A stretch of DNA of 35,094 bases, taken from IMG/VR virus record IMGVR_UViG_3300007640_000110, positions 1 to 35,094 of that record. The stretch is one strand, 5' to 3'. Positions 21,140 to 25,272 of this stretch are shown here, piece by piece. The translations under genes were made by a program, and so were the position numbers. Every line of letters begins with the position of its first letter. The first letter of the stretch is position 1. Source of the stretch: a virus. The notes beneath the pieces were generated by a model that saw only the letters and a program-made list of their open reading frames with translations, was not told the DNA's origin and ran no database searches.

Positions 21140-21328
21140 TTACAAGTTTTCTAAACAAAATTGGACCGCATATGGACACTTGTGACCGCCAGATAAGTAG
21201 TAGCGCATCGTCCGATCACCTATCCCGCATACCAGCGCCGCTTTGCGCTGAGATAGACCCGCGCCCTCGATGAGAGAGCGCAGATATTCCGGGCTTGGAT
21301 TGTGTTTTTTGGCGTTGGGTTTAGGCAT
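21140..21328 (-). CDS. Small HTH DNA-binding protein, possible repressor
   Basis: 62 residues from ATG 21328, which overlaps the stop of the upstream gene (TAATG), so the far-upstream ATG at 21412 is not needed. Helix-turn-helix: SPEYLRSLIEGAGLSQRKAA, then GIGDRTMRYYLSGGHKCPYAV. The YPVQFxLExL-like end (YAVQFCLENL) is common in small phage and bacterial HTH proteins. It could bind the palindrome at the promoter 21550-21578 that drives its own transcription. Confidence 0.7.
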   Translation of the reverse strand: MPKPNAKKHNPSPEYLRSLIEGAGLSQRKAALVCGIGDRTMRYYLSGGHKCPYAVQFCLENL

Positions 21329-21489
21329 TAAACAATGCTTATGCCTTCGGGACTTATTGACAGTGATACTACTTTGTTGCGGATTGAGCAGTAATACACT
21401 TGGAATGTCCATCCGTTTCCCGCATCGCCCTCATAAACTACGTTAGGATTTTTTTTTGTAGCTAGTTTTTTTGCTTCAGTGTAGGTCAT
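21328..21489 (-). CDS. Small hypothetical protein (53 aa)
   Basis: 53 residues from ATG 21489 (MTYTEAKKLATKKNPNVVYE; GAGGT upstream). An in-phase start at 21531 would add 14 residues. It has a small beta-rich body, DAGNGWTFQVYYCSIRNKVV. It is the first gene after the promoter at 21550-21578 and is translationally coupled to the HTH gene. Confidence 0.6.
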   Translation of the reverse strand: MTYTEAKKLATKKNPNVVYEGDAGNGWTFQVYYCSIRNKVVSLSISPEGISIV

Positions 21490-21549
21490 TTTCTTTACCT
21501 CAATTTCTCTGGTTTGTGTCCTCGGTATCATTGCCTGGACTATGTATAT

Positions 21550-21578
21550 ATAATAGGCATTATGTGCCTACATGTCAA
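21550..21578 (-). promoter_or_regulatory. Leftward promoter with palindromic operator
   Basis: On the minus strand: TTGACA (complement of 21573-21578), 17 bp, TATTAT (complement of 21550-21555), a near-consensus sigma-70 promoter. Between the boxes lies TAGGCA-N5-TGCCTA (21554-21570), an inverted repeat well placed to block polymerase. Transcripts would start near 21543 and read the 53-aa gene, the HTH gene and onward. Confidence 0.75.
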
Positions 21579-22020
21579 GTGGTTTATTGCGCATATCTGG
21601 GACACCCTGTCCCGTTTTTATCCTGTGGATGGTTGACTTCCCAACACAATAATCTTTTGCGATAGCCCTAACGGATCTATCGTCTGCGCTAATCTTAGAT
21701 ATCTGCTTGCTTGTTAGCTTTGGAGGCCTACCAACATATCGCTGCCGACCTTTGTTTCTCATGTCATCCATATTTTCTTGGTGCGTGCCGAGGAATAAAT
21801 GCTTGGGATTTACGCAAGCCCTGTTATCGCACCGGTGACAAACAAACATCCCTTCCGGGATAGGCCCATTATGCAGCTCATAAGAAACGCGGTGCGCCCC
21901 GCGATACCTACTTTGTATTTTAAATTGGCCATAACCGTTAGGTTTACTTGCCAGCCAAACCCAGCACTCGTCAGTTTTTCTTACTTTCTTCATAAACCTT
22001 TCTATTAATTTTGCATCCAC
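21568..22020 (-). CDS. HNH endonuclease with C-terminal helix-turn-helix
   Basis: 150 residues from GTG 22020 (an internal ATG at 21993 is possible). The HNH_3-type core spans about residues 15-90: [52 protein letters not shown]. The C-terminus ([40 protein letters not shown]) is a resolvase-like HTH, as in free-standing homing endonucleases. It overlaps the upstream gene by 16 bp. It could be a selfish element or act in phage DNA processing. Confidence 0.88.
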
Positions 22021-22380: not shown

Positions 22381-22650
22381 CTAAAATGGGATATCTGAGT
22401 CGAAGCCATCGTCAGAAGGTGGGGCGCTTTGCGGCTGACTCTCTTTCTTTTTCGGATCGAACATGTTTACAAATATCCGCGTATCACCTTCCTTCCGCTC
22501 AAGTCCCGCGAGATTAATGTGCGCATCTAACGTGATGTAATGCTTTCCTTCATGCTCATGCAGAGCGCCCACGTTTACCCAGCGCGTCTTTGTTTCGTTG
22601 TTGCGGTTAGTGTATTCGCCGTTTGCCACTACTAGCTCTTTCTTAATCAT
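22381..22650 (-). CDS. Single-stranded DNA-binding-like protein
   Basis: 89 residues: an OB-like beta body (MIKKELVVANGEYTNRNNET, WVNVGALHEHEGKHYITLDA) with a Pro/Ser linker and an acidic hydrophobic tip ending DSDIPF, the end that in SSB proteins recruits partners. It is shorter than classical SSB. The ATG overlaps the stop of the ERF gene (ATGA), so the annealing protein and ssDNA-binding protein are made together, as in other phage recombination modules. Confidence 0.75.
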   Translation of the reverse strand: MIKKELVVANGEYTNRNNETKTRWVNVGALHEHEGKHYITLDAHINLAGLERKEGDTRIFVNMFDPKKKESQPQSAPPSDDGFDSDIPF

Positions 22651-23399
22651 GCTGCTTTTTTCTCCTCACTCATTAACTTAATCATTATTTCTCTGGCTGG
22701 TTCATTCTTCGCCCATAGACTGCAAACGTAGCGAGCAGCGTCAACGCTCATCTCGCTAAGTAGCTCAGAAAATCCTATCTCATCATCCTCACCGGCAAGA
22801 ATTTCAAACCTATTCTTGTACTCCAGCTTGGTATCTTGAAGCTTCCTCATATCGCCCTTGGCTTTCGTTCCTAGCTTGTCCCACACGGCCAGCCAGGTGT
22901 CTCCGCCTTCTTTGTCTAGCAGGCAAAGCTCTAGCCAGTCGCCGTTCTGTATTGCCGCCTTGGCCCTGGCGGTCATTGCCGTAACATCTTCGGTTTCGTG
23001 GTCGATGCTGTCTCTTTCAGGGTCATCGCCAGTCTCCAAGACAAAGGTTTTCAGCATGGCGTACTTAGTTGCATAACTAATCGCTTTACCTGGTCCCTTG
23101 TCTTGGGTGTCAATGCCGTAACCAAAAGCACCCACGTCTATCTTATCTTCTGGATTGTCGGCGTTAACAAAGCTCACTGTTACATCAGCAACGGTTCTAT
23201 TCCCGTCCTGCTGCCACTTAGTCACGCTAGGGATAACCACAATGCCATGCTTGACTAAAACGGGGTGAAGCACGGCAGACACTTGATCGTGAGATACAAA
23301 GCTGTACTGGTTGTTTACTTTCTTATTCTCTTTCTGGACGTAAGCAACGTCACTCATTACCGCCAAAATTCTTTGATAGATGTTTTTTGTCTCACTCAT
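22647..23399 (-). CDS. ERF family single-strand annealing protein
   Basis: 250 residues. The N-terminal ERF domain (about 5-160) shows YQRILAVMSDVAYVQKE, YSFVSHDQVSAVLHPVLVKH and the conserved YGIDTQDKGPGKAISYATKY with AMLKTFVLETGDDPE. It anneals homologous single strands during phage recombination and possibly concatemer formation. The C-terminal part has a WAKNEPAREIMIKLM helix. It works with the ssDNA-binding gene. No partner exonuclease is recognised nearby. Confidence 0.95.
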   Translation of the reverse strand: MSETKNIYQRILAVMSDVAYVQKENKKVNNQYSFVSHDQVSAVLHPVLVKHGIVVIPSVTKWQQDGNRTVADVTVSFVNADNPEDKIDVGAFGYGIDTQDKGPGKAISYATKYAMLKTFVLETGDDPERDSIDHETEDVTAMTARAKAAIQNGDWLELCLLDKEGGDTWLAVWDKLGTKAKGDMRKLQDTKLEYKNRFEILAGEDDEIGFSELLSEMSVDAARYVCSLWAKNEPAREIMIKLMSEEKKAA

Positions 23400-23690: not shown

Positions 23691-23876
23691 TCAATCTCCG
23701 TTGCCGTATGGGCCAAGGGCTTCTTTCTTTTCTGTTTCCTGCTCGTCGAATAATTCGCCTAAGTACTCAAGCGCTTTACTGCGATATTCCACGTCTAGCA
23801 GGTCGTAGATTCTTGCAGCGATAGAGGAGCCTTCTGCAAGGGTGGTTTCTGGTTTTGTGCGTAAGTTCAAATCCAT
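23691..23876 (-). CDS. Small acidic hypothetical protein (61 aa)
   Basis: 61 residues (MDLNLRTKPETTLAEGSSIA, then YDLLDVEYRSKALEYLGELF and QETEKKEALGPYGNGD). It is helical and acidic with no known motif. RBS GGAG is about 9 bp before ATG 23876. It overlaps the preceding membrane protein gene by 10 bp and stops just before the next gene. Confidence 0.65.
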   Translation of the reverse strand: MDLNLRTKPETTLAEGSSIAARIYDLLDVEYRSKALEYLGELFDEQETEKKEALGPYGNGD

Positions 23877-24046
23877 GTCAGCTGCTCCGCGATTGCAAAG
23901 ATGATGCCCCAGGCAACAAAGCCAATTATCACGCCGTAACCAATGCCGACTTGGGCGGGGTGCTTCAGGCTGTCTCGATATTTCTTTGCGTAGTCAGTGG
24001 GTAGGTTTGCTGCTGCGCGTTGGTTTGGAATTATGTTGATGCTCAT
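23867..24046 (-). CDS. Small membrane protein, first gene of leftward early operon
   Basis: 59 residues from ATG 24046 (MSINIIPNQRAAANLPTDYA; GAGGGAAAG upstream). A longer in-phase frame to 24145 would run through the promoter, operator and terminator and is rejected. There is a polar N-terminal half, then one transmembrane helix IGYGVIIGFVAWGIIFAIAE. It is expressed from the promoter at 24119-24155. Early leftward membrane proteins often act on the host envelope; the actual role is unknown. Confidence 0.7.
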   Translation of the reverse strand: MSINIIPNQRAAANLPTDYAKKYRDSLKHPAQVGIGYGVIIGFVAWGIIFAIAEQLTWI

Positions 24047-24060
24047 TTTCTTTCCCTCGT

Positions 24061-24084
24061 TTAAAACACCCCGCTGAAGCGGGG
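24061..24084 (-). terminator. Leader terminator / attenuator of the leftward early operon
   Basis: On the minus strand CCCCGC pairs with GCGGGG around TTCA, followed by TGTTTTAA. It lies about 35-57 nt after the predicted start of the leftward transcript and 15 bp before the first gene. A second small hairpin ACCTC-CTCA-GAGGT (24090-24103) stands upstream of it. The arrangement suggests attenuation or an antitermination requirement. Confidence 0.65.
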
Positions 24085-24118: not shown

Positions 24119-24155
24119 GTCTACAAGTGTAGACCAGCTAAGCAAGGCGTGTCAA
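24119..24155 (-). promoter_or_regulatory. Leftward early promoter (PL-like) and operator OL
   Basis: Minus strand: TTGACA (complement of 24150-24155), 18 bp, TACACT (complement of 24126-24131). A perfect 16-bp palindrome GTCTACAAGTGTAGAC (24119-24134) covers the -10 box. The same half-sites occur at the rightward promoter, so one regulator should control both. Confidence 0.85.
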
Positions 24156-24229
24156 CAGCTATATACAAATTATTTTGACTTTTTTTTTCGAAACGGCTTC
24201 TAGTATTTTATGCGGGAGGTATACAGTAG

Positions 24230-24266
24230 TTGACATTAGTAGCACGCATAGTCTACGATAGTAGGC
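24230..24266 (+). promoter_or_regulatory. Rightward early promoter (PR-like) and operator OR
   Basis: TTGACA (24230-24235), 18 bp, TACGAT (24254-24259). The operator GTCTAC-GATA-GTAGGC (24251-24266) covers the -10 box and ends right at the ATG of the Cro-like gene. The start point predicted from the -10 box is 24265-24268, so the message would be leaderless or nearly so. Spacing and operator position mirror the leftward promoter. Confidence 0.85.
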
Positions 24267-24437
24267 ATGATTAAATTCGATGATCTCATAGCTCACTTTG
24301 GGAGCCAAGCAAAAGCCGCGAAAGCGTTAAATCTAGATCGCCAGGTTGTCTGGGCGTGGAAGCACAGAGGCATTCCGCTTACTCGACAATATCAAATTCA
24401 GGTGGTTACAGATGGCGCACTAAAACCATCCACCTAA
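24267..24437 (+). CDS. Cro-like HTH repressor
   Basis: 56 residues: MIKFDDLIAHFGSQAKAAKA, LNLDRQVVWAWKHRGIP, ending VTDGALKPST. This is the layout of Cro/YdaS-type proteins (FGSQxxAAxALxxxxxxVxxWxxRGIP). It probably binds the paired GTCTAC palindromes and turns down both early promoters. ATG 24267 is directly next to the operator with no SD, consistent with leaderless translation. It is too short for many gene finders but strongly supported by motif and position. Confidence 0.88.
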   Translation: MIKFDDLIAHFGSQAKAAKALNLDRQVVWAWKHRGIPLTRQYQIQVVTDGALKPST

Positions 24438-24456: not shown

Positions 24457-25272
24457 ATGCCACGCCTACCTTATTACCCAATGTACCCATCTGACTACCT
24501 AAGAGACACGGTTCATCTAACTTTAGATGAGCATGGTTTTTACATTTTGATGCTCCAGAATTTGTGGGAATACGATGGCGAGTTACCGGCAGATCCTAAG
24601 CAGCTATCGCGTATCTTGCGTGTAGATCCTAGGCAAGCTAGACGATACCTGCAAGGTAAGCTGGGCGATATGTTCGAGGTATCTAATGGCTTAGTTAGAA
24701 ATAAGAGGCTTTCTAAAGAACTGTCGCAAGCTACTGATAAGCATAATAAATTAAGCGAAGCAGGGCGAAAAGGTAACGCTAAAAGATGGTCGCCAGGCGA
24801 TACGCCACCCCAATCGCATACAGATACAGATACAGATACAGATATAGAAAAGAAACTTAAAAAGAAAGTCAAAAAGAAAGATTTAACCATCCCTCAAAAA
24901 TTCGCCGAATGGTGGGAGGCATACCCCAAGAAACGCAAGAAGGCAGAGGCGCTGAAAATTTGGCATAGAGACGGTCTCGAAGACCAAGCCGAAGAAATCA
25001 TTCTTGCGACTCAACTGCAAAAAGCAAACGACCGTTCATGGATTGAGGGATACATCCCAGATCCCACAACGTACCTGAACAACGAAAGGTGGACAGATGA
25101 AATCGATCAATCAAGTGCTAGACAAAACCAATCTGCAAAACCCTCGGGTTTCGAGCGAACAGAGGCAGGCGTTGCCGAATGGCTCGAAGAACAAGGTGGC
25201 AGTGTTTTGGATGACGATGAGCCGGATGTTTCCGGGGGTGTGGTTATCGACATGCGGGGCGAAACCTTGTGA
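24457..25272 (+). CDS. Replication initiation-type protein (DUF1376, lambda O position)
   Basis: 271 residues. The N-terminal DUF1376 domain (about 1-90) begins PRLPYYPMYPSDYLRDTVHL and includes LDEHGFYILMLQNLWEYDGE. A Thr/Asp-rich linker (TDTDTDTD, coded by four ACAGAT units at 24820-24843) follows, then a basic stretch and a C-terminal domain IPQKFAEWWEAYPKKRKKAE with WIEGYIPDPTTYLNNERWTD, as in many phage replication proteins. The last 176 bp overlap the next gene in another frame. Confidence 0.85.
   Translation: MPRLPYYPMYPSDYLRDTVHLTLDEHGFYILMLQNLWEYDGELPADPKQLSRILRVDPRQARRYLQGKLGDMFEVSNGLVRNKRLSKELSQATDKHNKLSEAGRKGNAKRWSPGDTPPQSHTDTDTDTDIEKKLKKKVKKKDLTIPQKFAEWWEAYPKKRKKAEALKIWHRDGLEDQAEEIILATQLQKANDRSWIEGYIPDPTTYLNNERWTDEIDQSSARQNQSAKPSGFERTEAGVAEWLEEQGGSVLDDDEPDVSGGVVIDMRGETL

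Follow-up and report, generated by a model that had tools for sequence, protein, structure and literature searches.

This work deals with a 35,094-base virus record from an uncultured tailed phage, taken over its whole length (hereafter, the window), whose genes follow a lambda-like order: terminase, portal, protease, capsid, tail, ERF, primosomal protein, NinB, resolvase, exonuclease, amidase and spanin. The control region of interest is bounded on its right side by cro (24267-24437, + strand), followed, as the next gene of the rightward early operon, by the gene of a primosomal, replication-initiation-type protein with the DUF1376 domain (24457-25272, +). The Cro-like nature of the 56-aa cro product, suggested by an earlier sequence-only reading of the DNA, was borne out by its assignment to the P22_Cro family (PF14549; 60.3 bits, curated cut-off 30.2, E = 1.6e-16), and its best matches in PDB were the Cro proteins of P22 (1rzs) and N15 (2hin). 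The leftward operon opens with a gene (23867-24046, -) whose product, 59 aa long and containing a hydrophobic segment, is putatively a small membrane peptide; this product was considered as a CI repressor and rejected, as Pfam revealed no HTH in it. The same operon includes the gene of an ERF-family single-strand annealing protein (22647-23399, -), presumably acting in recombination. The leftward transcript contains in its 5' leader a short GC-rich, terminator-like hairpin (24069-24084, -; CCCCGCTTCAGCGGGG followed by TGTTTT), although the leader RNA folds no better than its shuffles (z = -0.39). The Rfam search gave no match. A GC-rich leader hairpin just ahead of the first leftward gene was also noticed in loci L051, L056, L061 and L210 (GGGGATTGGCCCC) of the collection described below. 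Separately, a second regulatory module was seen at 21328-21580 (-), where a TTGACA-N17-TATTAT promoter (21578-21550), its two hexamers enclosing the perfect palindrome TAGGCA-N5-TGCCTA, lies upstream of a small ORF and of the gene for a small HTH protein (21140-21412, -, PHROG 3865).

The two divergent promoters of the TTGACA-N18-TACxxT form reported by the sequence-only reading were both read directly in the DNA, with an 18-nt spacer on either side: the leftward early promoter P_L (24126-24155, -; TTGACA at 24155-24150, TACACT at 24131-24126) and the rightward early promoter P_R (24230-24259, +; TTGACA at 24230-24235, TACGAT at 24254-24259). Standing head to head within about 150 bp, they precede, on sequence evidence, the recombination and the cro-replication operons, respectively, and both were recovered by an independent promoter scan with 10 matches out of 12 each. 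The palindromes that had been placed over their -10 boxes also proved identical to the letter. The operator O_L1 (24119-24134; GTCTAC-N4-GTAGAC with perfect arms, GTCTACAAGTGTAGAC) covers the -10 box of P_L, while O_R1 (24251-24266; GTCTAC-N4-GTAGGC, GTCTACGATAGTAGGC) covers the -10 box and the predicted start of P_R, and the ATG of cro, which had been described as directly adjoining the right operator, indeed begins at the very next base, 24267. The distance between the -35 box and the operator is identical, 15 bp, on both sides. None of 5000 dinucleotide shuffles of the intergenic DNA yielded an operator pair of this quality at the N4 spacing, and a palindrome pair equalling it at any spacing from N0 to N8 arose in one shuffle out of 5000. 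GTCTAC-N4-GTAGAC with at most two mismatches occurs in the 35-kb window at three sites (24119-24134, 24251-24266 and 24219-24234; 0.62 expected), all of which fall inside one 150-bp region. With a P22_Cro protein encoded beside even-centred palindromes over early promoters, and with the site geometry significant in shuffles, we infer that O_L1 and O_R1 are candidate operators to which Cro would bind.

A putative weaker operator was found over each -35 box: O_L2 (24151-24166; GTATATAGCTGTTGAC on the - strand, three mismatches) overlaps the -35 box of P_L, and O_R2 (24219-24234; GTATACAGTAGTTGAC, two mismatches) that of P_R. The two sites are mirror-symmetric, each being located exactly 32 bp, i.e., about three helical turns, inward of its strong site. 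When O_L1, O_R1 and the two TTGACA boxes were kept in place and the remaining DNA was shuffled, a mirrored pair as good as O_L2/O_R2 at any distance of 17-59 bp from the strong sites had a simulated probability of 1.5e-5. Because of this mirrored pair and its low probability, each promoter is considered to carry, probably, one strong and one weak operator, and the earlier suggestion of one operator per promoter is probably incomplete; that reading had overlooked the -35 sites and also did not mention that cro probably starts without a leader and that no cI is detectable. Alternatively, only O_L1 and O_R1 matter, the -35 sites being a by-product of the likeness of TTGACA to the half-site or of an old inverted promoter duplication, which we regard as a possible, if less likely, explanation. 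The -35 GTTGAC does agree with the half-site GTAGAC in five letters out of six, O_L2 and O_R2 owe a part of their match to the TTGACA hexamers, and a single operator is bound by the Cro proteins of PY54 and phiKO2 (PMC4488713, PMC4997575). However, the half lying outside the -35 box (GTATAC/GTATAT) fits as well, and at equal distance on both sides, while the probability of 1.5e-5 was obtained although the -35 boxes were not shuffled. Moreover, when the two promoter arms are aligned, GTATA-AG--GTTGACA and GTCTAC----GTAG-C are common to both, i.e., the blocks of the -35 sites stayed alike whereas the spacers between the sites diverged. This alternative bears on one part of the claim only and could hold together with the main model presented below, which is why the confidences we attach to the different explanations do not sum to one.

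A CI-like gene was detected by tblastn with eight CI N-termini neither in the 35-kb window nor in 13 loci with a lone cro (see below), while CI was recovered in the three loci that served as positive controls. The divergent genes tested with Pfam contained no HTH, and PHROGs and Pfam scans of the larger ORFs revealed no integrase or other lysogeny functions in the record, which may lack an end: it is classed as linear, so that a repressor or an integrase could sit on a missing end, and no terminal direct repeat was found in it. The proposal of a compact OL/OR control region is retained in part. The sequence supports a Cro-family gene, divergent early promoters, matched -10 operators and a layout resembling the OL and OR of lambda moved next to each other, but with no cI gene found the region does not amount to a complete OL/OR of the lambda type. 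Instead of the three tandem operators per side typical of lambdoid phages there are one strong and one probable weak site, and no CI-type prophage repressor encoded divergently and acting on the same operators was seen in the record, which is not shown to be complete.

Scans of sequence collections yielded several dozen distinct P22-type cro loci. Twelve other distinct IMG/VR loci possess a P22-type cro with no CI-like divergent gene seen, although such 'lone Cro' loci were judged on flanks of at most 3 kb and mostly by reading the divergent ORF. In the studied phage the ATG of cro stands 7 nt after the -10 box and is not preceded by a Shine-Dalgarno sequence, and the cro mRNA is therefore probably leaderless, a state known for the cro mRNA of PY54, which starts at the AUG (PMC4488713). 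The -10 box of the best promoter stands 6-7 nt before the cro ATG in 10 of the 13 lone-Cro loci, the studied phage included, whereas among CI-bearing loci a gap of 5 to 9 nt was found in 7 of 45 (Fisher p = 7e-5, counts not corrected for relatedness). An ATG lying 6-8 nt past the -10 box was also observed in the CI-bearing loci L213, L216, L219, L232, L065, L076 and L183, so a leaderless cro would not be limited to lone-Cro phages.

Regarding the operators, the P22-type cro loci adjoined by CI nearly always have matched upstream palindromes that are even-centred (N0/2/4/6), and the control region of P22 itself contains ATTTAAG-N4-CTTTAAT. The lone-Cro loci L142 and L215 have divergent TTGACA-type promoters with 16-bp N4 palindromes over both -10 boxes; their half-site is GTNCGG, and the positions (-107, -72 and -26 from cro) are identical in both. 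Three sites were likewise found at L143, where the set is statistically weak (38/300 shuffles). N4 sites are absent from L051 and L061 and weak at L209, and the group of L051, L056 and L061 displayed no convincing matched operator pair. A still more compact arrangement was noticed in L051, L056, L061, L144, L210 and L209, where both divergent promoters appear to use one symmetric TTGTCAA as the -35 box. The exact GTCTAC sites recur only in one contig, and since this sole relative is 99.9% identical, GTCTAC is without independent conservation. The IMG/VR scan for TTGACA-N15-GTCTAC-N4-GTAG returned 22 contigs, two copies being present only in the near-identical one; the others were rejected as true relatives, as none of them encodes a related Cro and their matches look like chance. 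No DNA similarity of the control region to cultured phages was detected, and the relatives found via the ERF or primosomal genes, named phages included, had no homologous control region.

Considering these data, we propose, with a probability of about 0.75, that the immunity region of this phage has collapsed to Cro alone, which would shut off both early operons by negative feedback. Host RNA polymerase would start the two operons at the head-to-head P_L and P_R, the left one comprising small ORFs, the ERF recombinase and a nuclease, and the right one cro itself and then the primosomal protein, NinB, the Holliday-junction resolvase and lysis genes. Cro, probably translated from a leaderless mRNA, would accumulate and bind as a dimer to the strong O_L1 and O_R1 over each -10 box and, more weakly, to O_L2 and O_R2 over each -35 box, tightening the shut-off, and both promoters, including its own, would presumably be silenced. 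As no CI gene was found, Cro has no visible competitor, and the outcome would be a symmetric timer of early transcription, not a bistable switch of the CI/Cro kind; the lifestyle is presumably non-lysogenic.

A conventional temperate switch, with a CI gene lying at another place or on a missing end of the record and its product acting on the same sites in competition with Cro, as in P22, seems unlikely to us, even if the architecture is otherwise lambda/P22-like, CI adjoins cro in the classical members of the P22-type Cro family and the record may not be closed. The tblastn search with its recovered controls found no CI in the 35 kb, the ORFs scanned include no integrase, the divergent gene is devoid of HTH, and CI beside cro is likewise missing at a dozen related loci. 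Assigning the palindromes to another regulator of the phage or the host is less probable still. The window does encode, under a strong promoter of its own, the second HTH protein (21140-21412, -), but that promoter has no GTCTAC-type site nearby and carries a different palindrome, while the even-centred 16-bp geometry and the place next to cro suit the P22-Cro family. That the palindromes merely happen to lie beside promoter-like sequences is highly improbable: promoter-like hexamers are indeed common, the 12 sites found in the region by the scan showing no enrichment over the 17.3 in shuffles, but the operator pair was not reproduced in 5000 shuffles, and its placement is identical relative to both -35 boxes and fixed with respect to cro.

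The Cro-only arrangement shares with P22 immC and lambda OR-OL the leftward recombination operon and the rightward cro-replication operon, and with P22 also the P22-family Cro and the even-centred palindromic sites, here putative operators, on the -35 and -10 boxes of early promoters. It differs from both in that no cI was found next to the promoters or between them and in that these promoters meet head to head within some 150 bp; the operators are also fewer (two strong and probably two weak) and cro is probably leaderless. In lambda, Cro represses pL and pR partially and is required for efficient lytic growth (PMC2327240). The immB regions of N15, PY54 and phiKO2 resemble the studied one in the all-alpha P22-like Cro fold, the 16-bp length of the operators and the small number of sites for Cro, both putative here (PMC4488713, PMC4997575), operators of this length being used by the N15-type telomere-phage Cro proteins of the same fold class (PMC4997575); with PY54 the leaderless cro mRNA, predicted here, is shared as well. 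Unlike the studied phage, all three keep a CI/CB prophage repressor, and the Cro proteins of PY54 and phiKO2 act on OR3 only, reportedly leaving their own gene unrepressed (PMC4488713, PMC4997575), whereas here there are sites on both early promoters. Further parallels are EBPR podovirus 1 (JF412294), L142 and L215, with the same Cro family, no CI seen beside cro, bidirectional TTGACA-type promoters and the cro ATG 7 nt past the -10 box. L142 and L215 differ in their half-site and in having three sites, and EBPR podovirus 1 has no established set of matched palindromes. L142 differs also in the pentapeptide-repeat gene (2174-2761) on the side opposite to its lone, probably leaderless cro; a similar-looking gene was noticed at the same place in EBPR podovirus 1 (L246).

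Cro is usually studied as the opponent of CI. The lone-Cro control region appears to be a stripped-down variant of the lambda type that recurs across IMG/VR loci, and it is conceivable, though we put this forward only tentatively, that it marks a widespread unrecognised class of phages with a Cro-only symmetric timer in place of the CI/Cro switch, mirrored strong -10 and weak -35 operators spaced by three helical turns on promoters facing away head to head, and a leaderless cro. Phages that possess Cro, apparently without CI, may reveal what Cro does alone, namely, timing and limiting early transcription, and would offer a natural minimal autoregulated circuit for comparison with the lambda switch. 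The even-centred geometry, in turn, provides a testable rule to locate the operators of uncultured P22-type Cro proteins.
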